DNA of 64,000 bases from Thalassotalea nanhaiensis (lineage in GTDB: Bacteria > Pseudomonadota > Gammaproteobacteria > Enterobacterales > Alteromonadaceae): NCBI RefSeq assembly GCF_031583575.1, contig NZ_CP134146.1:2108001-2172000 (forward strand). The letters run 5' to 3'. The stretch's first letter is position 1; each line of letters starts with the position of its first letter. A program made the position numbers and the translations under genes. The notes beneath the pieces were generated by a model. That model was not told the origin of the DNA, did no database searches, and saw only the letters and a program-made list of their open reading frames with translations. This document shows positions 23,467-46,665 of this stretch, piece by piece.

Positions 23467-23607
23467 ATGGAAGAGCAGAACGAAAGAGTAGAAGTAAATA
23501 AAGTGTCAGATACAACAGTGTTTGATTATGATAATGGCGGCTGGCCACGTGACTTTGACATTCGCATTGAAGTCGCTGAACAACGTGAAGTTTTGGAAGC
23601 TAATTAG
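23467..23607 (+). CDS. small acidic protein, 46 residues, unknown
   Basis: The ATG at 23467 has a strong AGGAG 6 nt upstream, and the frame runs to TAG at 23607. The product begins MEEQNERVEVNKVSDTTVFD, is strongly acidic and contains NGGWPRDFDIRIEV. It has no signal peptide, membrane helix or Cys. It ends 4 bp inside the stop of the convergent channel gene. I do not recognise the family. The ribosome site, the compositional bias and the Gly-Trp-Pro core argue that it is a real gene too short for routine calling. Confidence 0.65.
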   Translation: MEEQNERVEVNKVSDTTVFDYDNGGWPRDFDIRIEVAEQREVLEAN

Positions 23608-24704
23608 TTAGTACCAAGGTATTTTTCCAGTTTTTCGCGCCAGCTATCGTTACGAACAATTCGTATTAATACACGATTTAGAGGCTCTCTTAGTTCACTG
23701 CCTTGAGTTAAGGCAAAACCATAGTCTTGTCGTTCAAATGTAGCAGGCGATATTTCAATTTCACCTTTAAACTCTGTTTCTACAAAGTACTGTAGTAAAG
23801 GTGCGTCGTATACCATGGCATCAACTTTCCCTTCAGTAATTGCTTGTAGTCCACCTTTCACATCGGCAAAAGTGACGATCATATAGCCGTTATTTTGAAG
23901 AAAGGCTTCACTGGTTGAACCGTCTAATGTAGCGATTTGAAGTTTATTTAAATCGGTTAAATTTTGAATGTTAGTATTAATTTTTTGAACAGTTAATATG
24001 CTTGAGAATGCAGCAATAAAACTGGCTACAATCATCAATGCAGTAAACATCCAAATCACACCAAACGCCCGTCCTATCTTAGTCATCGGTGTTTTATCAC
24101 CATAACCAACGGTTGTCATCGTCGCTGCCGCCCACCAAAAACCTTCACTGATATACTCAATTGTATGAGTGTCTTCATTTTTGGATTTATGCTTATGCTC
24201 AACCAACCACATAAGCCAACCGACAATAAATAATAATAAAAATAGAGAAACGACTACTTGAATAAACTGCCATGAAAATAATTGTTTAAAGGTGGATAAC
24301 CATACATTGACTTGCTCGTCAGACAAGGTTGCAATGGCAAACCCGGTGGAATGGTGTGGGTGAGTAAAGTCCATTAATGGTTCACGTTCTTCCGTGATGG
24401 TAATCGCTGCAATGGCAGCATCTAAATTCCCTTGCTCTACGCCTTGTAATAACTCCGGTAATGTATGTTCTTCAAATTCATATTTAAGATTGAGTTCGAT
24501 GGCTATTTCTCGCCATAATTCTACACTGATCCCTGACCAACTATTGTCAGGGTTTTTAATAGCGAAAGGGGGAGAATGCATAGTACCAACACGTAACACT
24601 TGTTGTGAGGTTTGTTGAGTTGTTCTATCTTGGGCGTTAACAGAATTTATCGACAACAAAGTTGCAGATAAATAAATAATCATATAGATAAATTGTTTCA
24701 ACAT
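23604..24704 (-). CDS. GluR0-type ligand-gated K+ channel (ionotropic glutamate receptor family)
   Basis: 366 residues. Signal peptide (to about residue 25, cleavage near VNAQ). S1 half of a periplasmic-binding-protein domain, with LRVGTMHSPPFAI and TITEEREPLMDFTHP containing the carboxylate-binding Arg. Membrane helix 1 (about 148-172), re-entrant pore with the K+ selectivity filter TMTTVGYGDKTP (about residue 200), helix 2 (about 215-240), then the S2 half with the ligand-amine Asp in MVYDAPLLQYF. This inverted-pore layout is that of Synechocystis GluR0 and its bacterial relatives. The gene is 15 bp downstream of gltS on the same strand, so receptor and symporter are probably co-expressed. 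Glutamate as ligand is inferred. Confidence 0.88.
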   Translation of the reverse strand: MLKQFIYMIIYLSATLLSINSVNAQDRTTQQTSQQVLRVGTMHSPPFAIKNPDNSWSGISVELWREIAIELNLKYEFEEHTLPELLQGVEQGNLDAAIAAITITEEREPLMDFTHPHHSTGFAIATLSDEQVNVWLSTFKQLFSWQFIQVVVSLFLLLFIVGWLMWLVEHKHKSKNEDTHTIEYISEGFWWAAATMTTVGYGDKTPMTKIGRAFGVIWMFTALMIVASFIAAFSSILTVQKINTNIQNLTDLNKLQIATLDGSTSEAFLQNNGYMIVTFADVKGGLQAITEGKVDAMVYDAPLLQYFVETEFKGEIEISPATFERQDYGFALTQGSELREPLNRVLIRIVRNDSWREKLEKYLGTN

Positions 24705-36867: not shown

Positions 36868-38049
36868 ATGAAAAATTTATTATTTACTTGCTCATTATTA
36901 TTTTCAACTGCATTACTTTTCTCATGCACATCAAGTAACAGTGATAATGCGCAAGCGTGTAATACTGGCAATGTTACATTAACCACTAACTTTGCGACCG
37001 GTCGAATGGATAGCTGTAAACGAATTGCTGAAAACGAGTACTTTATAACTTTAAAACCAGAAATAAATAAAGCCAAAACGCCGATCAACTCTAGTCCTTG
37101 GTATGCATTTAAAGTTCAAGCAAAACAACCTGCATCGATCAAAGTTACTATGGTTGTTAAAGGTGATGAACATAGGTATCCGCCTAAAATCAGTAAAAAT
37201 GGTAAAACTTGGCAATTACAACCCTACAAATTAAATGGTCAACGCTTGGTTATGAATATAGAAGCATCAAATGAAGCTATATATATTGCTGGTCAGGAAA
37301 TTATTAACAACGAATACTATGATGATTGGGCTCAGCAACTATTAGAGCAATCATCAATTAGTTATGACTTACTGGGTGAGTCTACTCAAGGTCGACCAAT
37401 TTATAAAATAGAAAGTAAAGGCAGTAGTAATGAATGGCTAGTCATTTTAGGCCGTCAACATCCGCCCGAAATAACAGGCGCATTGGCTCTTTTCCCCTTC
37501 GTTGAAACGCTACTTTCGAACAGTGATTTAGCATCTTCATTTCGTGAAAAATATAATATATTAGTTATTCCTAATATTAATCCAGATGGCGTACAAGCCG
37601 GTAATTGGCGTCATAATGCCAATGGTTATGATTTAAATCGTGACTGGAATGATTTTAATCAAGTTGAAACTCGTCAAATAAATGCCTATTTAGAACAGCT
37701 GGTAGAGAATAACCAAAAAATCAAATTTGCCGTCGATTTTCATTCCACTAGAAGTAATGTGTTTTATACAATGCCGGTTGATTATGGTGTTGAAAATGCT
37801 TACTTTGTACGTCATTGGTTAGGTGACTTAGACAAAAAAATGCCAGATGTAGAAGTGGTATTAAAACCTGGTAACAATCCTGATTTGGGTGTTTCAAAAC
37901 AATATTTTTCAGATAAATTTGGTGTACATGCCATTACTTATGAAATGGGTGATAACACCGATAGACAAGAGATTATAGATATAGCCATTAATGCCTCTAA
38001 TCTATTAATGAGTAATATGTTGTCTGACAAAGACCATAATAAACAGTAG
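36868..38049 (+). CDS. M14-family zinc carboxypeptidase, lipoprotein
   Basis: 393 residues. Signal peptide with lipobox LFSC (Cys about 20). An N-terminal beta domain (about 30-150) is followed by a peptidase M14 domain. Zinc ligands are His and Glu in GRQHPPEITG and His in VDFHSTRSN, the substrate-binding arginine region is YDLNRDWNDF, and the catalytic Glu is in ITYEMGDNTD. It removes C-terminal residues from peptides, here probably in the periplasm or at the outer membrane. It may process peptidoglycan-type or cross-linked peptides, given the D-amino-acid genes next to it. It starts 103 bp after the receptor and ends 15 bp before the amidohydrolase. Confidence 0.9.
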   Translation: MKNLLFTCSLLFSTALLFSCTSSNSDNAQACNTGNVTLTTNFATGRMDSCKRIAENEYFITLKPEINKAKTPINSSPWYAFKVQAKQPASIKVTMVVKGDEHRYPPKISKNGKTWQLQPYKLNGQRLVMNIEASNEAIYIAGQEIINNEYYDDWAQQLLEQSSISYDLLGESTQGRPIYKIESKGSSNEWLVILGRQHPPEITGALALFPFVETLLSNSDLASSFREKYNILVIPNINPDGVQAGNWRHNANGYDLNRDWNDFNQVETRQINAYLEQLVENNQKIKFAVDFHSTRSNVFYTMPVDYGVENAYFVRHWLGDLDKKMPDVEVVLKPGNNPDLGVSKQYFSDKFGVHAITYEMGDNTDRQEIIDIAINASNLLMSNMLSDKDHNKQ

Positions 38050-38064
38050 GGTAAAAAACTTTAT

Positions 38065-39645
38065 ATGAAAAATTTTAACCGAAGTCCGATATTTCTAGCC
38101 GTTAGTTTAACTTTGTTGTCTTCGTGTTCTCCTGAGAATGTTGATACCAACAATGTTGCTGATATCGATTTACTGATCACCAATGGGACTGTTTATACGG
38201 GTGATAAATTACACCCTCAAAACTTGGATATTGCAGTATGTAAGCAAGTGATTTGTGGTTTATATCCGTCAGGTAATGTAAAGGTTGATGCAACAAAAGT
38301 CATTGATGCTAAGGGAAAAATAGTTAGTCCAGGCTTTATTGACCCTCATACACATAGTCTTGAAGAGTTACGTAGTAAAGATAAGAATCATAACTTAAAT
38401 TATTTAACCCAAGGCGTAACCACTGTTGTTAATGGTAACGATGGTGAAGGACCTGTTGATATTGCTGGAACAGCCAAGTTACTTGAAAATAATGGTATAG
38501 GCACTAATGTTGCGTTGTTTGTTGGACATGGCAGTGTTCGTCAACAAGTAATGGGACGAGAGCAACGCTTTGCTACAGATGCAGAACTGACAGAAATGTC
38601 CGCATTAGTAGAACAAGCTATGAAAGATGGCGCTGTTGGTTTATCGAGTGGTTTATATTACGTTCCTGGCAGTTATGCTAATACAGAAGAAGTAATCACA
38701 CTGGCAAAAGTCGCCAGCAAATATAAAGGGATTTATGACACTCATATGCGTGATGAAAGTACCTTCAATATTGGTTTTTTATCTTCTTTGGATGAAGCTA
38801 TTGAAGTGGCAGAAAAGGCAAGCATTCATTTGCACTTAGCTCATATTAAAGCCTTGGGCGTAGATGTTTGGGGGCAAAGTGAACAGGCCATTGCTAAAAT
38901 TGAATTAGCACAACAAAACGGCATCAGTATCACTGCCGATCAATATCCGTGGCTTGCATCAGGTACCAAATTACATAGTGCAGTAATGCCCAAGTGGGTC
39001 ATGGCAGACTCAAAGTCTGCTTTTCATCAACGACTCAATGATCCTGAATTGGCAGAACAGCTTTATCGAGAAATTAAAGAAAACATTAGGCGTAGAGGTG
39101 GTCCTACATCGTTACTTGTAACAGCCTTTAAAGATCAGCATTTAGTAGGTTTGAATTTACAACAAATTGCCGAACAGCGTAATTTAACTGCAGAGCTAAC
39201 GGCAATGCAATTAGTTCAAGAAGGTGATGTACGAGTAGCTTCATTCAATATGTCGCCAAAAGATGTTGAACGCTTTATGGTTAAACCTTGGGTAGTAACT
39301 TCTTCTGATGGTACAAACGGTCACCCGCGCAAGTTTGCCAGCTTTCCACAAAAATTTAATGAATATGTACGTAACAAAAAATTACTTACTGTAGGTGAGT
39401 TTATTTCCAGAAGCTCGACAAAAACAGCAAAGATTTTAGGTTTACATAAACGAGGTTCATTACAACAGGGCTTTACTGCAGATATTATTATTTTTGATGG
39501 TGATAAATATTCACCTCAAGCGAGCTTTGCTAAATGGAATGTATATTCTAAAGGTGTTGATACCGTTATTATTAATGGTGATGTAGTTATTGAGAATGAA
39601 CAATATTTAAACAAATTGTCCGGTAAGTTTATCTCGAATAAATAG
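38065..39645 (+). CDS. N-acyl-D-amino-acid deacylase-like amidohydrolase, exported
   Basis: 526 residues. Hydrophobic N-terminus with lipobox-like LSSC (Cys about 21). Amidohydrolase superfamily: metal-binding HxH in GFIDPHTHSLEEL, YDTHMRDE, HLAHIKALG and the catalytic Asp in VTSSDGTNGHPR. These match D-aminoacylases, which cut N-acyl-D-amino acids (D-Glu, D-Asp or neutral D types). A D-aminoacylase in an exported form beside an M14 carboxypeptidase fits extracytoplasmic release of D-amino acids. It could instead act on a dipeptide or lactam. Followed by a hairpin terminator. Confidence 0.87.
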   Translation: MKNFNRSPIFLAVSLTLLSSCSPENVDTNNVADIDLLITNGTVYTGDKLHPQNLDIAVCKQVICGLYPSGNVKVDATKVIDAKGKIVSPGFIDPHTHSLEELRSKDKNHNLNYLTQGVTTVVNGNDGEGPVDIAGTAKLLENNGIGTNVALFVGHGSVRQQVMGREQRFATDAELTEMSALVEQAMKDGAVGLSSGLYYVPGSYANTEEVITLAKVASKYKGIYDTHMRDESTFNIGFLSSLDEAIEVAEKASIHLHLAHIKALGVDVWGQSEQAIAKIELAQQNGISITADQYPWLASGTKLHSAVMPKWVMADSKSAFHQRLNDPELAEQLYREIKENIRRRGGPTSLLVTAFKDQHLVGLNLQQIAEQRNLTAELTAMQLVQEGDVRVASFNMSPKDVERFMVKPWVVTSSDGTNGHPRKFASFPQKFNEYVRNKKLLTVGEFISRSSTKTAKILGLHKRGSLQQGFTADIIIFDGDKYSPQASFAKWNVYSKGVDTVIINGDVVIENEQYLNKLSGKFISNK

Positions 39646-40308: not shown

Positions 40309-41097
40309 ATGAGTACAAACTTTAGCCCGGTTCAGTTAAGACAAAAAATCAGAAATGGCGAGCATAATTCTAACACTTCCGGATATTGCCATGGCTTTGT
40401 GCAATGTAATTTAGTGATGCTGCCAAAAGATTGGGCGGCAGATTTTTTAAAGTTTTGTCAATTGAATCAGAAACCTTGCCCATTGATTAGTGTTTCTGAA
40501 AACCCAGGTGATACACATTTACCTGATGTAGCAACAGATTTAGATTTAAGAACTGATATACCGAGCTATCGAATTTTCAAAGATGGTGTGATGACAGAAG
40601 AGGTATCCGATATAACACCGTATTGGCGCGATGATCTTGTTACCTTTGCTTTAGGTTGTTCATTTTCGTTTGAAGAAAGTCTTATTGCTGATGGCTTGGA
40701 TGTAAGAAATATAAGCGAACAAGTAAATGTACCTATGTATCGAACAAATATTGAGTGCAAACCAGCCGGGCCATTCAAAGGCAATATGGTAGTCAGTATG
40801 CGCCCATTTAATCCAAGTGATGCAATAAGAGCAATACAGATATGTACAAGGTTCCCTTCAGTTCATGGTGCGCCTGTTCATTTTGGCGATCCTAGTATGA
40901 TAGGCATAGATGATATTAATTCTACAGACTACGGTGATCCAGTAACAATAAAACCAGGTGAACAACCGGTATTTTGGGCTTGTGGTGTAACACCGCAAGT
41001 AGCATTAGAACAAGCTAAACCACCATTTTGTATCACTCATAGCCCAGGCTGTATGTTAGTAACCGATTTACCTAACAGTAAATTAGCTGTTTTATAA
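40309..41097 (+). CDS. DUF1445 protein (D-glutamate cyclase N-domain / YcsI type)
   Basis: 262 residues, the whole DUF1445 domain (PF07286; annotated as putative hydro-lyase in bacteria, ycsI in Bacillus). Recognised by [68 protein letters not shown] and [15 protein letters not shown]. In mammalian DGLUCY this domain is fused to DUF4392, and the protein cyclises D-glutamate to 5-oxo-D-proline. Here DUF4392 is a separate gene four positions downstream. The 18-bp gap to pxpA matches the frequent DUF1445-pxpABC neighbourhood. Catalysis by this half alone is not proven. Confidence 0.88.
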
Positions 41098-41115
41098 TTA
41101 TATAAAGGAATATTC

Positions 41116-41850
41116 ATGTCGTTGTTATTAAATTGTGATTTAGGTGAAAGTTACGGCTCTTGGACTATGGGACTGGATGCCGCAGTAATGCCGTTTATTG
41201 ACCAAGCAAATATCGCCTGTGGATTCCACGCTGGTGACCCTTTAGTAATGCAAAATACGTTGGCGTTAGCAAAAAAACACGATGTAATGGTTGGTGCTCA
41301 TCCCGGCTATCCAGACCTAGTGGGTTTTGGACGTCGCTCAATGAACTGCTCAAAACCTGAAATTATTGCTTTTATGCATTATCAAATGTCGGCAATATGG
41401 GGTATGGCTAAAGCCCAAAATTTATCGTTAGATTATGTTAAACCACACGGTGCTTTGTATAACGATATGATGGCCAATATTGATGTTCGCTGTGCAATTA
41501 TGCAAGCAATTGCAGAGTTTCCATACCCGATCACCTTAATGTTACAAGCAACTCCTGCCTATAAAGTTCATCAAAAAGAGGCTGAACAGCTTGGCATTAA
41601 ATTATGGTTCGAAGCGTTTGCAGATCGTTGTTACGACGACGATGGAAAATTATTGTCCCGCACTCAGGTTGGCGCCGTACACAACAAAGAAAAAATGATC
41701 GCCCAGGTAGAGCAACTATGTGCTCACGGAACAGTAACAACAGTAAGTGGTAATTCATTGGCTATTCATGCGGATACATTGTGTGTTCATGGTGACAACA
41801 TGGAAGGCATAAATGCTATTCAAGAAGTTAGAGAGCGGATATCTAAATGA
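41116..41850 (+). CDS. pxpA: 5-oxoprolinase subunit PxpA (LamB/YcsF)
   Basis: 244 residues, usual length. Signature LLNCDLGESYGSWTMGLDAA, NIACGFHAGDPLVM, VKPHGALYNDMM, EAFADRCYDDDGKLLSR. With PxpB and PxpC it forms the ATP-dependent prokaryotic 5-oxoprolinase that opens pyroglutamate to L-glutamate in the cytoplasm. AGGAA precedes the start, and it overlaps pxpB by 4 nt. Confidence 0.96.
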   Translation: MSLLLNCDLGESYGSWTMGLDAAVMPFIDQANIACGFHAGDPLVMQNTLALAKKHDVMVGAHPGYPDLVGFGRRSMNCSKPEIIAFMHYQMSAIWGMAKAQNLSLDYVKPHGALYNDMMANIDVRCAIMQAIAEFPYPITLMLQATPAYKVHQKEAEQLGIKLWFEAFADRCYDDDGKLLSRTQVGAVHNKEKMIAQVEQLCAHGTVTTVSGNSLAIHADTLCVHGDNMEGINAIQEVRERISK

Positions 41851-42524
41851 ATATAGAGATCGCGGGTGAAAATTCGTTAATCATTTATTTTTCTGAACAT
41901 GCATCACCACAAGTATCTGCGCAAGTACAGAAATCATCAAGACTACTGCAAAATGTTCTTGCTGATGTATTAGTAGATGTTGTTCCTTCATACGCATCGT
42001 TACTGATCATTTATGATCCGCTGTTAACGGATAACTTTTATGTGCTATCCACCATTAATAGAACATTATCTGACAGCTCAACTGCGATCGTAGAAACAGG
42101 TAAAGTCGTTACGTTACCTGTTTATTATTCAACAGAATCTGGTGCTGATCTAGAGCGTATTGCTCTGCATTCAAAATTAAGCGTAGATGAAGTCATAGAT
42201 ATACATCAACAATCAGAGTATCGAGTATATGCCATCGGTTTTGCACCTGGTTTCGCCTATTTAGGTGAGGTGGATGCTCGCATTGCAATGCCAAGACTTG
42301 CCACGCCCCGTTTAAAAGTTCCACTCGGTGCAGTAGCTATTGCAGACAGACAAACTGCTGTGTACCCCGCAGAATCACCTGGCGGATGGAATATTATAGG
42401 CCTTTGTCCGCAGCGAATGTTTGACCCGAAAGCAACACCAACCATGCCTGTAGAAGTCGGAGATACAGTAAAGTTTAAAGCGGTTAGTCGCAGTAAATTT
42501 ATTGCTTTAGGTGGTGTGATATGA
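41847..42524 (+). CDS. pxpB: 5-oxoprolinase subunit PxpB (KipI family)
   Basis: 225 residues. Cyclophilin-like KipI domain with IGFAPGFAYLGEVD, RLATPRLKVPLGAVAIADR and ESPGGWNIIGLCP. In Bacillus the KipI relative inhibits the KinA kinase, but in a pxpABC operon its role is as an oxoprolinase subunit. Four-nucleotide overlaps with pxpA and pxpC indicate coupled translation in equimolar amounts. Confidence 0.95.
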   Translation: MNIEIAGENSLIIYFSEHASPQVSAQVQKSSRLLQNVLADVLVDVVPSYASLLIIYDPLLTDNFYVLSTINRTLSDSSTAIVETGKVVTLPVYYSTESGADLERIALHSKLSVDEVIDIHQQSEYRVYAIGFAPGFAYLGEVDARIAMPRLATPRLKVPLGAVAIADRQTAVYPAESPGGWNIIGLCPQRMFDPKATPTMPVEVGDTVKFKAVSRSKFIALGGVI

Positions 42525-43480
42525 GTGAATCGAACGCACTAGGCTTTAAAGTGTTAAAGCCAGGAATGCTTACCCTTATTCAAGATTTAGGACGCTTCGG
42601 TTGTCATAATATCGGCCTGACAACCGGAGGCCCGTTAGATCCAAATGCTTTTAATTGGGCAAACAAATTATGCTCAAACTCAAGCAATACCAGTTGCTTA
42701 GAAGTGACTGTTGGCGGCTTAGAGTTAGAAGTACAACTTGATACAACTTTTTGCGTCACAGGTGCTAAATTACCTCTAACGGTAAATGGTAAAAGCAAAC
42801 CACAATGGCAATCTTTATCTGTTTATAAAGGTGACATTATAAAGTTAGGTTTTGCCTGTGAAGGAATGAGAGCATACTTGACTGTATCGGGTGGTTTTAA
42901 TATAAAGCCAACCTTTGACAGTGTCAGTACAGTGGTTAGAGAAGGTATTGGTGGAGTAGATGGTGACAAAGTATTGCAAGGGCAGATTCTACCTTTTTCA
43001 GCGAGTAATACTGCTCATCACAACAGGCTTGTTAAGACGCCATCTTATAAGAAAGACGTAACATTGAGAGTCTTACTTGGGTATCAACATAACGCATTTA
43101 CCGAATTGCAAAAACGGGTGTTTTTTTCAAGTAAATATACAGTATCAGAAAGTTGCGACAGAATGGGATATAGACTTAAAGGTGCTAAAACAAAACCTTC
43201 GATTGATGGAATTTTATCAGAAGGAATTTGTTTAGGAGCAATTCAAGTGCCTGCAGATGGTCAACCCATTGTACTGATGAATGATAGACAAACTATAGGC
43301 GGCTACCCAAAAATTGGTTCGGTTTTATCATTAGATTTAGCTAAGTTGGCACAATGCGGGCCAGGTGCAACGGTCACTTTTGAGCCTGTTTCAATTGAAG
43401 AAGCACACAACATCCTACATTTAGAAAAAGCAGTAATAGAGCTAAACCCAATTGAGCCTATTGAGCTTCTATTACATTAA
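42521..43480 (+). CDS. pxpC: 5-oxoprolinase subunit PxpC (KipA family)
   Basis: 319 residues, biotin-dependent carboxyltransferase-like/allophanate hydrolase subunit 2 fold. Motifs: KPGMLTLIQDLGRFGCHNIG, GGPLDPNAFNWANKL, SESCDRMGYRLKGA, DGQPIVLMNDRQTIGGYPKIG. Completes the PxpABC oxoprolinase. It is 20 bp before the DUF4392 gene, tying the oxoprolinase to D-glutamate cyclase in one transcript. Confidence 0.95.
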   Translation: MSESNALGFKVLKPGMLTLIQDLGRFGCHNIGLTTGGPLDPNAFNWANKLCSNSSNTSCLEVTVGGLELEVQLDTTFCVTGAKLPLTVNGKSKPQWQSLSVYKGDIIKLGFACEGMRAYLTVSGGFNIKPTFDSVSTVVREGIGGVDGDKVLQGQILPFSASNTAHHNRLVKTPSYKKDVTLRVLLGYQHNAFTELQKRVFFSSKYTVSESCDRMGYRLKGAKTKPSIDGILSEGICLGAIQVPADGQPIVLMNDRQTIGGYPKIGSVLSLDLAKLAQCGPGATVTFEPVSIEEAHNILHLEKAVIELNPIEPIELLLH

Positions 43481-43500
43481 GTATTTAAAAGAGATTAATT

Positions 43501-44361
43501 TTGACTGATTTAAGCCTATCGCTAGAAAGAGATATTGAGTTAAGTAAGCATATTGAAGATTTACTTGTCGCTCGAAACCCTCGTGGTATGAAGGATGTCC
43601 AAACGGCACTAACGCCTGGATATTATTTTCGCGCAGCCCAAACTTTACAAGGTTTAACTGGTACAATTTTGATCGGAACCGGATTTCCTGTAACGGATAC
43701 ATTTGAAACAGATGGACCAGTAGGTGCCATTGCTTTATATAATGCTCTTGAAGAATTGGGAGCACATCCCATTTTAGTCGGTGGAGAGTCGTTTTTAAGT
43801 TTAACTGAAAATGAATTTCGTGTGCATAAACTGATAGAAGGTGATCTCAGTAATGCCAAACAAGAAGCGATCAAAACTTTAGCTGATTTAAATCCCCAAG
43901 CTGTTATATCCATTGAACGACCTGGCCTTTCTGAGCAAGGTGGCTATTTTAATATGCGAGGTGAGGACATAAGTACGTATTGTGCTTGTTTTGATCATTA
44001 TTTGAATGAAGCTAAATGTTCGACAATAGCCATTGGCGACGGTGGTAATGAAATTGGTATGGGCAATATTAAACAAGCTATTTCAAGTTTAGATATTACG
44101 CCATCAGTTACAACATGTGATGAGCTGTTAATAGCCGATGTTTCTAATTGGGGGGCTTATGGGATCCTTGCGTTATTAGGAATGTGGGCAAATGTTGACT
44201 TGCTTGCAAAGGTCGACCCTATTGCAATATTAGAGTATATCTCTGAACGGGGTAGTGTCGATGGCGTTACCCGAGAAAACAATTTAACCGAAGACAGTTT
44301 CCCTCCTGCTTATGGACATGAAATCATTTCAAATTTGCGAAAATTAACAAAATTTATTTAA
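43501..44361 (+). CDS. DUF4392 protein (D-glutamate cyclase C-domain)
   Basis: 286 residues, starting at TTG 43501 with AAGAG about 8 nt upstream; the next Met is residue 30, which would cut the conserved start of the domain. DUF4392 (PF14336) features: TGTILIGTGFPVTDTFETDG, GAIALYNALEELGAHPILV, ISIERPGLSEQGGYFNMRG and CSTIAIGDGGNEIGMGNI. In mammals this domain forms the C-terminal half of DGLUCY. Its glycine-rich blocks suggest nucleotide or substrate binding. Together with the DUF1445 gene it makes a split D-glutamate cyclase in this operon; direct partnership is inferred from the eukaryotic fusion. Confidence 0.87.
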   Translation: MTDLSLSLERDIELSKHIEDLLVARNPRGMKDVQTALTPGYYFRAAQTLQGLTGTILIGTGFPVTDTFETDGPVGAIALYNALEELGAHPILVGGESFLSLTENEFRVHKLIEGDLSNAKQEAIKTLADLNPQAVISIERPGLSEQGGYFNMRGEDISTYCACFDHYLNEAKCSTIAIGDGGNEIGMGNIKQAISSLDITPSVTTCDELLIADVSNWGAYGILALLGMWANVDLLAKVDPIAILEYISERGSVDGVTRENNLTEDSFPPAYGHEIISNLRKLTKFI

Positions 44362-44375
44362 GATTAGAGAGTAGT

Positions 44376-45233
44376 ATGAGTATTGTATTTTTAAACGATT
44401 CTTTTATGCCGATGGATCAGGCAAAAATTTCCCCAATGGATCGTGGTTTTTTATTTGGTGACGGTATTTATGAAGTAATCCCAACATACAATGGAAAAAT
44501 GGTTGGTTTTGCTCCTCACATAGCCCGCATGCAAGAAGGGTTAGGGCTTATCGGTATTAACCTTGGTTGGACCGAAGCAAAATGGCGTGACGTTGTTGAA
44601 ACATTGATCGAAAAAAATGACGGCGGTAACTTAGGTGTCTATTTGCATGTAAGTCGTGGTGCTGATGTTAAGCGCTCACATGCTTATCCTGAGAACGTAA
44701 CACCTACAGTATATGCTTTCGCGTTTGAAATTCCGCCGGCCAATGTTGCCGATAAATCAGTGACCAAAACCTATAAAGTTAACTCAACAGAAGACTTACG
44801 TTGGAAACGTTGTCATATTAAATCGACAGCTTTACTAGGTAATGTCATGCACTATCAACAAGGCTTTGCTGAGGGTTGTAATGAAACCTTATTATTCAAT
44901 GCAAATAATGAGTTAACTGAAGCAAGTGCTTGTAATGTCTATGTCATTAAAGATGGAGTCATTGCAACTCCGCCATTAGATAATCAAATTCTGCCTGGTA
45001 TCACTCGTTTAATTTTATTAGACCTGCTTGCAAAAGAAAGCTCATTGAAAGTTGAAGAACGTCCAGTTACTATGGAAGAAGTTGAAAATGCTGATGAAAT
45101 TTGGCTAACCAGTTCAAGTAAAGAAGTAGCTCCTGTTATAGAATTTAACGGTAAAGCTGTTGGTAATGGTGAAATTGGCGATGTTTGGTTAATCGCCCAG
45201 TCGATTTTTAGTTCAGGAAAATATAATTACTAA
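44376..45233 (+). CDS. dat: D-amino-acid aminotransferase (class IV PLP)
   Basis: 285 residues, DAAT size. The N-terminus SPMDRGFLFGDGIYEVIPTY is the class IV signature, the PLP lysine is in CHIKSTALLGNVMHYQQ, and the cofactor-binding segment NNELTEASACNVYVIKDG follows, with the phosphate loop LPGITRLILL. DATs interconvert D-alanine + 2-oxoglutarate with pyruvate + D-glutamate and accept many D-amino acids. Branched-chain aminotransferase is the alternative, but the close link with alr and the D-Glu cyclase favours DAT. Its stop shares a base with the alr start. Confidence 0.9.
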   Translation: MSIVFLNDSFMPMDQAKISPMDRGFLFGDGIYEVIPTYNGKMVGFAPHIARMQEGLGLIGINLGWTEAKWRDVVETLIEKNDGGNLGVYLHVSRGADVKRSHAYPENVTPTVYAFAFEIPPANVADKSVTKTYKVNSTEDLRWKRCHIKSTALLGNVMHYQQGFAEGCNETLLFNANNELTEASACNVYVIKDGVIATPPLDNQILPGITRLILLDLLAKESSLKVEERPVTMEEVENADEIWLTSSSKEVAPVIEFNGKAVGNGEIGDVWLIAQSIFSSGKYNY

Positions 45234-46339
45234 TGTCACGTCCTACTAAAGCGTTAATAAGCAAAAAAGCTCTGTGTCACAACTATCAAGTAGCACAAGA
45301 ATTAGCGCCTAATTCAAATAACCTCGCCGTGGTAAAAGCTAATGCTTACGGCCATGGCGCCGTTGTTGTCGCGTCTATATTAGAAGCGTTAGTTCCTGCT
45401 TTTGGTGTCGCTTGTATTGAAGAAGCATTAGAGCTAAGAGCAGGTGGGATACAGAAACCCGTACTGTTATTAGAAGGTATTTTTAGTAGTGATGAAGTTG
45501 AATTAGCCGCCAATAACAACTTTTGGATTATGGTGGATAATTCACAACAAGCAGAATGGGTATTGAACGCGAACATTTCAAAACCTGTTAAAGTTTGGCT
45601 TAAAGTGGACACTGGCATGCACCGTTTAGGTGTACAGCCTAAGTTTGTGAATGAGATATATTTAGCATTAAGAGCGAGTGACAATGTTAATAATGACATT
45701 GTACTAACGACTCATTTTTCCAGTGCTGACGAACATGGCAGTGGTGAAACAGCAAATCAAATGGCGATTTTTGATAAAACGAAAGCATCCCTTCAAGACT
45801 GTTTAGATCAAGCTGACAACATTCCTTGCAGTTTAGCTAACTCAGCAGGATTACTTGCTCACCCTAAATCCCATTTAGACTGGAATCGTATAGGTTTTAT
45901 GCTTTATGGTAATTCACCTCTTGAAAGAGAGAACGAGGCTTCAAAACGTTTAATTCCAGTGATGACACTTAAGTCAGCAATAATATCTATAAGAGAGATA
46001 TCTGCAGGTCAATCTGTTGGCTACAATCAGACCTGGACAGCATCAAGAACAACTAAGATTGCAACCGTTGCTATCGGTTATGGGGATGGTTATCCTAGAA
46101 GTGCGAAGTCTGGTACACCTACCTTGATTAATGGTCAAATAGCACCATTGGCCGGCCGAGTATCTATGGATATGATCACTATTGATGTGACAGATATTAC
46201 AGATGTTAAGTTAGGCGACAAAGTTATTTTGTGGGGACCTGAGCTTCCCGTTAATGAAGTAGCAAAGTGTTCTTTCACGATTGGCTATGAAGCGTTAACT
46301 CGTATGCCAAAAAGAACACCAAGTGTGCTAGTAGATTAG
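45233..46339 (+). CDS. alr: alanine racemase
   Basis: 368 residues. The PLP lysine is in NNLAVVKANAYGHGA, then VKVWLKVDTGMHRLG, the catalytic tyrosine region SVGYNQTWTA followed by TVAIGYGDGYPR, and the PLP contact AGRVSMDMITIDVTD. Converts D-alanine to L-alanine and back. Directly coupled to dat (1-nt overlap), so here it probably works catabolically (DadX-like), feeding L-Ala to alanine dehydrogenase; whether the genome has another alr is unknown. Last gene of the seven-gene operon. Confidence 0.94.
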   Translation: MSRPTKALISKKALCHNYQVAQELAPNSNNLAVVKANAYGHGAVVVASILEALVPAFGVACIEEALELRAGGIQKPVLLLEGIFSSDEVELAANNNFWIMVDNSQQAEWVLNANISKPVKVWLKVDTGMHRLGVQPKFVNEIYLALRASDNVNNDIVLTTHFSSADEHGSGETANQMAIFDKTKASLQDCLDQADNIPCSLANSAGLLAHPKSHLDWNRIGFMLYGNSPLERENEASKRLIPVMTLKSAIISIREISAGQSVGYNQTWTASRTTKIATVAIGYGDGYPRSAKSGTPTLINGQIAPLAGRVSMDMITIDVTDITDVKLGDKVILWGPELPVNEVAKCSFTIGYEALTRMPKRTPSVLVD

Positions 46340-46636: not shown

Positions 46637-46665
46637 AAAACCCCGTACTTTGTACGGGGTTTTTT
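46637..46665 (+). terminator. terminator after tRNA-Ser copy 2
   Basis: AAAACCCCGTAC-TTT-GTACGGGGTTTTTT, a strong perfect stem with T6. Confidence 0.94.

Follow-up and report, generated by a model that had tools for sequence, protein, structure and literature searches.

D-glutamate is a near-universal component of the bacterial cell wall, and to our knowledge it is not settled how bacteria without a glutamate racemase dispose of it. In mammals, D-glutamate is the known substrate of DGLUCY (9030617O03Rik/C14orf159), a protein in which a DUF1445 domain precedes a DUF4392 domain, according to the sections of PMC5339696 that deal with the enzyme. Separate genes for these two domains occur in a seven-gene operon of Thalassotalea nanhaiensis, which we analysed within a 64,000-nucleotide stretch of its chromosome (NZ_CP134146.1; hereafter the window, positions 2108001-2172000 of the single-contig 4.31 Mb genome). 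Unlike in DGLUCY, the 5-oxoprolinase genes pxpABC lie between the two, and the lactam could return to L-glutamate beside 5-oxoprolinase instead of being excreted. We consider it reasonably probable that this is a conserved operon that routes D-glutamate to L-glutamate via 5-oxoproline.

The split form is already in print, as a table in PMC11580864 gives six homologues of the human enzyme, from gut bacteria, that are split. The Bacillus subtilis operon ycsF-ycsG-ycsI-kipI-kipA is similar in that it combines DUF1445 with PxpABC (pxpABC and YcsG are covered in the portion of PMC10448178 on this cluster). B. subtilis was the only one of our control genomes with DUF1445, and DUF4392 was found in no control genome, B. 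subtilis included. We take ycsI to be the DUF1445 gene of the B. subtilis operon, which presumably contains neither a D-amino-acid aminotransferase (DAT) gene nor an alanine racemase gene (alr). The dgcN-dgcA D-glutamate pathway of marine Proteobacteria shares a logic with the route proposed here, namely to mask the amino group of D-glutamate, invert, and unmask at an energy cost. In dgcN-dgcA, the subject of Yu et al. 2023 (cited in PMC12363236, which mentions dgcN), masking is reportedly by N-acylation, whereas here ring closure would take its place, and the enzymes are unrelated. The MurD2-MurL system likewise answers life without MurI and differs in that MurL epimerises a nucleotide-linked dipeptide; it occurs in Gammaproteobacteria such as Xylella, Stenotrophomonas, Dyella and similar genera (PMC8788868, in the part on this pathway). 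The stretches mapped on either side of the operon gave no MurL match, the T. nanhaiensis genome itself not having been searched for MurL. The enzyme families discussed here are already known. A search of the openly licensed literature turned up no work on a 5-oxoproline racemase and none on the bacterial route, and we make no claim that either is unpublished.

The operon consists of seven plus-strand open reading frames (ORFs) at 40309-46339 of the window, in the order and at the positions that a first-pass annotation had given them:

40309..41097, plus strand: DUF1445 protein (PF07286, Pfam name D-Glu_cyclase; UPF0317); PF07286 222 bits; PDB relatives 3db9 and 2pif
41116..41850, plus strand: pxpA, 5-oxoprolinase subunit; PF03746 298 bits; NF003816 345 bits, over cut-off
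41847..42524, plus strand: pxpB, 5-oxoprolinase subunit; PF02682 225 bits; TIGR00370 164 bits, over cut-off
42521..43480, plus strand: pxpC, 5-oxoprolinase subunit; PF02626 288 bits; TIGR00724 269 bits against a cut-off of 230
43501..44361, plus strand: DUF4392 protein (PF14336, the DGLUCY C-terminal domain); PF14336 218 bits; solved relative TON_0340
44376..45233, plus strand: dat, D-amino-acid aminotransferase; PF01063 171 bits; best PDB match 3daa, 191 bits
45233..46339, plus strand: alr; PF01168 and PF00842 208 and 149 bits; TIGR00492 361 bits, over cut-off
46637..46663, plus strand: terminator-like hairpin 298 bp past alr, with a 12-bp stem and a T run; a pattern match only

Successive genes are separated by 18, -4, -4, 20, 14 and -1 bp, and the DUF4392 gene starts with TTG. 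Seven terminator-like sites were observed in 7.5 kb, against 4.8 expected from shuffles. The Pfam matches of all seven proteins exceed their cut-offs, the three PxpABC subunits are all present and contiguous, and the genome has no PF03746 match other than the operon pxpA. The family identities are firm, with caveats on two scores. The aminotransferase falls below the cut-off of the D-amino-acid transaminase model TIGR01121 (242 versus 277 bits); its nearest solved relatives in the PDB are D-amino-acid aminotransferases (191 bits, versus 120 bits for branched-chain enzymes). PxpC passes only the broader TIGR00724 and scores 225 bits with NF045499, below the cut-off of 500. An NCBIfam scan of the DUF4392 protein gave no match. 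The operon thus encodes both domains of DGLUCY unfused, as two ORFs, and they are separate ORFs in loci from the same family too.

We propose that the operon is a D-glutamate/D-alanine hub. Alr would make D-alanine, and DAT would convert D-alanine and 2-oxoglutarate to pyruvate and D-glutamate, the probable supply of this wall precursor without MurI. D-glutamate in excess or derived from peptidoglycan would leave the pool through the DUF1445/DUF4392 system, which would cyclise it to 5-oxo-D-proline without ATP; this lactam would then be inverted to 5-oxo-L-proline, and PxpABC would use ATP to open the latter to L-glutamate, which could feed glutamate dehydrogenase. The reactions of the fused mammalian D-glutamate cyclase, of PxpABC on the L form, of DAT and of Alr are established in other organisms. 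That the split pair cyclises, that inversion occurs, which subunit carries it out, and the physiological direction are what we infer for this operon.

The first-pass annotation had proposed the course from D-glutamate through 5-oxoproline to L-glutamate. Gene order, co-occurrence and the peptidoglycan-related neighbours seen in the family speak for that course, which needs an inversion step besides. The suggestion that PxpABC might tolerate the D form does not provide one: as a matter of chemical reasoning, ring opening retains configuration, so a PxpABC that accepted the D form would merely give D-glutamate back, and we rejected this as a full explanation. The best candidate for the inversion, DUF1445, is in the operon itself.

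To place the operon among its relatives, we used a family set of 147 genomes, with gene order compared in 28 other family loci on stretches of 7.6 to 19 kb. DUF4392 was found in 29 of these genomes, DUF1445 in 30 and both in 28 (Fisher 1e-26, kinship uncorrected), and in the sole DUF4392 genome without DUF1445 (G494) the contig stops inside pxpA. PxpA is encoded in 132 of the 147 genomes, with one copy in each of the 29 that have DUF4392. Sixteen of the 28 loci have the exact order DUF1445-pxpA-pxpB-pxpC-DUF4392 with gaps below 300 bp. In four (L055, L061, L062 and L064) DUF1445 and DUF4392 are directly adjacent (1-81 bp) with no pxpABC between them, and the corresponding genomes encode PxpA elsewhere. 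Of the other eight, some are interrupted or rearranged, some run into a contig end and some miss one gene at the site. A second set, the named loci, comprises the best 80 of at least 531 DUF4392 relatives confirmed among 593 candidate stretches and is biased toward near relatives; its hosts include Marinobacterium, Amphritea, Neptunomonas, Halioglobus, Colwellia, Pseudoalteromonas, Rheinheimera and HTCC2207. The exact order is present in 60 of the 79 mapped named loci, the 80th being a PxpC-DUF4392 fusion. Among the 65 named loci with enough flank, DUF1445 was found in 60, PxpA in 64, PxpB in 61 and PxpC in 61. In the family, the pairing of DUF1445 and DUF4392 exceeds chance.

The same counts bear on the idea that the operon serves only to repair or use L-pyroglutamate, with DUF1445, DUF4392, DAT and Alr as bystanders. 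PxpABC and adjoining transporters do serve the use of 5-oxo-L-proline in other bacteria, as described in parts of PMC13274462 and PMC10448178. However, the inheritance of DUF4392 and DUF1445 is tightly linked, pxpABC sits between them in an order that stays fixed, and 58 of the 65 well-flanked named loci have a DAT gene no more than 6.5 kb away on the same strand (for DAT and Alr, only same-strand copies were counted). We regard this explanation as highly improbable.

Two further observations were made in the named loci. At L125:8987-10810, one 607-aa ORF fuses PxpC and DUF4392 on a Porticoccaceae metagenome contig, where an assembly error is possible. In L080, L085, L089 and L102, a gene of the PLP-dependent PALP family separates DUF4392 from LysR-dat and is encoded on the opposite strand (identified by PF00291 in L080 and by membership of the same cluster in the other three).

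Within the proposed route from D-glutamate to L-glutamate, the most likely division of labour, as judged from conservation and gene context, would have DUF1445 invert and DUF4392 cyclise. DUF1445 has two highly conserved cysteines, C117 (106 of 109 sequences) and C225 (107 of 109), and E122, M164, R165, H186 and T228 are invariant in the 109 sequences. An AlphaFold model of the protein (pLDDT 92.8) places each cysteine right after a strand and before a helix. C117 is lost in the DUF1445 proteins of L163, L164 and L165, and C225 and H244 are also lost in L163 and L165; L163 and L164, which have S117, come from the two family genomes that carry DUF1445 without DUF4392, and the genome of L165 has no PxpA.

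The genomic contexts of DUF1445 apart from DUF4392 are also informative. In a phylum set of 398 genomes, PxpA is encoded in 52 of the 64 genomes with DUF1445 and in 97 of the 334 others (Fisher 8e-15, kinship uncorrected), and lies within 12 kb of DUF1445 in 21 of the 52 (one unplaced genome was scored as non-adjacent). We mapped 19 DUF1445 loci from genomes without DUF4392, several of them picked for a nearby PxpA, so that counts among them are not rates. In L153, L154, L158, L159, L160 and L162, DUF1445 lies upstream of genes of one DctM permease cluster, identified as part of a TRAP importer by a Pfam run on L153. The binding protein of L153 matches 2pfy (3e-94) and 2pfz (3e-75), which we take to be the Bordetella pyroglutamate receptors. 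PxpABC follows DUF1445 and the importer genes in L153 and L154, while L158, L160 and L162, from genomes without PxpA, encode a protein of about 1200 aa from one cluster, which by Pfam is a hydantoinase A/B oxoprolinase in L158. In several of these loci, DUF1445 without DUF4392 thus stands beside probable 5-oxoproline importers and one or the other type of oxoprolinase. A bacterium that takes up 5-oxoproline and opens the ring has no need for a cyclase, whereas a racemase would benefit it.

DUF4392 has a solved member, TON_0340, with a two-metal site whose ligands are named in the structural part of PMC5132392. The operon protein has all six acidic metal ligands of this domain. E69, D71, E139, D180 and E184, which were mapped to the TON_0340 ligands by alignment, are kept in 111 of 111 sequences; D265, which was equated with Asp246 by position and conservation, is kept in 108, the other 3 having gaps. 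Dihydroorotase provides a precedent, as its binuclear metal site catalyses amide ring closure with no ATP. With its conserved two-metal site, DUF4392 seems the likelier cyclase of the two proteins.

DUF4392 also occurs without DUF1445. It adjoins MurL in G057 (L067:9080-11441) and lies two genes from MurL in G108 (L068:9257-14211), with a MurD-like ligase between; neither DUF1445 nor PxpA was found in these two genomes. The MurL of L067 scores 435 bits, under the model cut-off of 700, and its L068 counterpart shares 39% identity with it across 327 residues. A cyclase that consumes D-glutamate would make sense there, perhaps as the D-glutamate disposal enzyme of MurL bacteria. A 464-aa ORF beside DUF4392 in L065, which had been taken as MurL-like, was rejected as a wrong-frame ORF. 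In L069 (L069:5183-15901, minus strand), a 3573-aa open frame downstream of DUF1445 contains two DUF4392 stretches and a DUF4781 match.

Taken together, we put forward tentatively that DUF1445 is a 5-oxoproline racemase. The fuller proposal is just as tentative: DUF1445 would be a two-cysteine, cofactor-independent racemase and DUF4392 the cyclase, forming with PxpABC a general bacterial ATP-driven converter of D-glutamate to L-glutamate whose hosts may in many cases lack glutamate racemase, and DUF1445 alone would allow other bacteria the use of both mirror forms of pyroglutamate. If true, this would explain the role of the bacterial halves of the human mitochondrial enzyme, name a candidate for the missing inversion step and give bacteria a route that turns D-glutamate into ordinary carbon and nitrogen, and the human DUF1445 domain may hold an activity that has not been looked for. 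Our estimates for both the route and the racemase rest on gene order and co-occurrence.

The family loci add a wall-related context. At least one peptidoglycan-breakdown gene lies near 14 of the 28. The markers are a NagZ-like GH3 protein, a NamZ exo-muramidase, a MurNAc-6-phosphate etherase with a BadF-type kinase domain, a NagX-like protein and an N-acetylmuramoyl-alanine amidase with a beta-lactamase-type domain; they were identified from one representative each, and the GH3 and NagX matches are under the NCBIfam cut-offs. In a further set of 20 loci, such markers were found only near L163 and L164, both from the same family. An RpiR/SIS regulator adjoins DUF1445 in L051, and L062 has a member of that sequence cluster in the corresponding place.

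Several observations weigh against the racemase assignment or the route. The strongest point against DUF1445 as a racemase is that the purified mammalian fusion is reported to yield 5-oxo-D-proline and that humans excrete mainly the D form (PMC5339696, in the portion on product and excretion). The same product favours an explanation in which DUF1445 and DUF4392 together are a D-glutamate cyclase only, and either an unlinked enzyme, such as the protein encoded at L171:8777-9466, performs the inversion or PxpABC acts on the L lactam and the D lactam is simply excreted. The nearly constant pairing of DUF1445 and DUF4392 in the family also speaks for it, and the T. nanhaiensis genome does encode an unlinked protein of the Asp/Glu racemase family. 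However, DUF1445 far outnumbers DUF4392 in the phylum set (64 versus 10 of the 398 genomes, 8 of the 10 also having DUF1445), and in several loci it stands beside 5-oxoproline uptake and opening, where a cyclase is unneeded. We consider this explanation somewhat unlikely.

The structural comparisons do not favour the racemase either. An alignment of hidden Markov models of the two halves of DUF1445 pairs C117 with C225 but is nonsignificant (E 0.08-0.11), and a Foldseek search with the model returned five matches at E<=0.001 (2pif, 3db9 and NrpR MJ0159), none of them a racemase. In the phylum set, PxpA is missing from 12 of the 64 genomes with DUF1445, and no oxoprolinase was found in the mapped stretch of five of the eight DUF1445 loci from PxpA-less genomes. 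The solved DUF4392 protein TON_0340 is described as a weak Mn phosphatase in the section of PMC5132392 on its activity, which is left unexplained by a cyclase function. Three Pseudoalteromonas loci (L112, L126 and L128) have the arrangement GH3-DUF1445-pxpA-DUF4392-dat, with pxpB and pxpC absent at the site and PxpC found elsewhere in the genomes. DAT is missing from the stretch in ten of the 28 family loci. Peptidoglycan markers lie near just 5 of the 80 named loci, and a wall context is thus a trait of the family at most and not of the operon at large.

One of the Foldseek matches may be of separate interest. The nitrogen repressor NrpR MJ0159 (3nek) matched the DUF1445 model with E 1e-5 and 6e-5 (TM 0.35-0.44), possibly a distant fold relation.

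The supply of D-glutamate and D-alanine in this genome was examined next to the proposed route. The usual sources of D-glutamate are MurI or D-amino-acid aminotransferases, as stated in the background given in PMC8788868. A family search found the operon alr as the only alanine racemase gene of the genome, and no murI over threshold was found in it. The best match to TIGR00067 reached 24.6 bits against a cut-off of 147 and is the 229-aa Asp/Glu racemase family protein at L171:8777-9466, unlinked to the operon, which we take to resemble YgeA. With a single alr and no murI over threshold, the operon DAT is likely the D-glutamate source of the genome and the operon likely contains essential genes. 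The first-pass annotation had counted the interconversions by DAT and Alr as part of D-glutamate salvage; in this genome the two are probably biosynthetic. Alr is not a constant member of the operon, as it was found in 29 of the 65 well-flanked named loci and in none of the 28 other family loci.

These features could also suit a reverse route that replaces MurI, in which L-glutamate would be cyclised and inverted to 5-oxo-D-proline, which PxpABC would open with ATP to D-glutamate for the wall. The single-contig genome without murI over threshold, the position of its sole alr in the operon and the family loci without DAT are consistent with this, and ATP hydrolysis would power that direction as well. 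On the other hand, DAT, a known source of D-glutamate, is present in the window operon, and the L form is the known substrate of PxpABC. Moreover, 103 of the 118 family genomes without DUF4392 encode PxpA, which hence is no general maker of D-glutamate, and the breakdown genes near half of the family loci suggest D-glutamate removal. We judge the reverse route improbable.

The proposed conversion of D-glutamate to L-glutamate had also been described as requiring no D-amino-acid oxidase. The route itself may need none, but a DadA-like dehydrogenase is encoded elsewhere in the genome (421 aa; 383.3 bits, cut-off 383). This dadA-like gene, suspected at one point of being broken by one stop, is in fact an intact 421-aa ORF, and is flanked by genes for a D-aminoacylase-like protein and a TonB receptor. 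It belongs to a second D-amino-acid cluster of the genome (L170:6076-12570) with a TonB receptor, the DadA-like dehydrogenase, a D-aminoacylase-like protein and a regulator recognised by eye.

Two genes precede the operon in the window:

36868..38049, plus strand: M14 peptidase, lipoprotein by eye; PF00246 59 bits; weak match to MpaA (23 bits, cut-off 157)
38065..39645, plus strand: D-aminoacylase-like protein, lipoprotein by eye; PDB matches D-aminoacylase 1rjp 1e-49 and N-acyl-D-glutamate deacylase 3gip 4e-44

The M14 peptidase possibly acts on peptidoglycan peptides, and the D-aminoacylase-like protein possibly releases D-amino acids, roles that would suit D-glutamate coming from the wall. 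We considered the upstream TonB receptor, M14 peptidase and D-aminoacylase as parts of a conserved system and rejected this, as the 28 family loci showed no close relatives of them next to the operon. GltS and an NAD-glutamate dehydrogenase are encoded 14 and 8 kb upstream of the operon in the window. Beside GltS, at 23604-24704 on the minus strand, lies a gene for a bacterial glutamate-receptor-like channel, a periplasmic binding domain with an inserted ligand-gated ion channel (PF00497, PF00060 and PF10613). A relative with 37% identity to this channel is encoded directly after DAT in the L043 operon.

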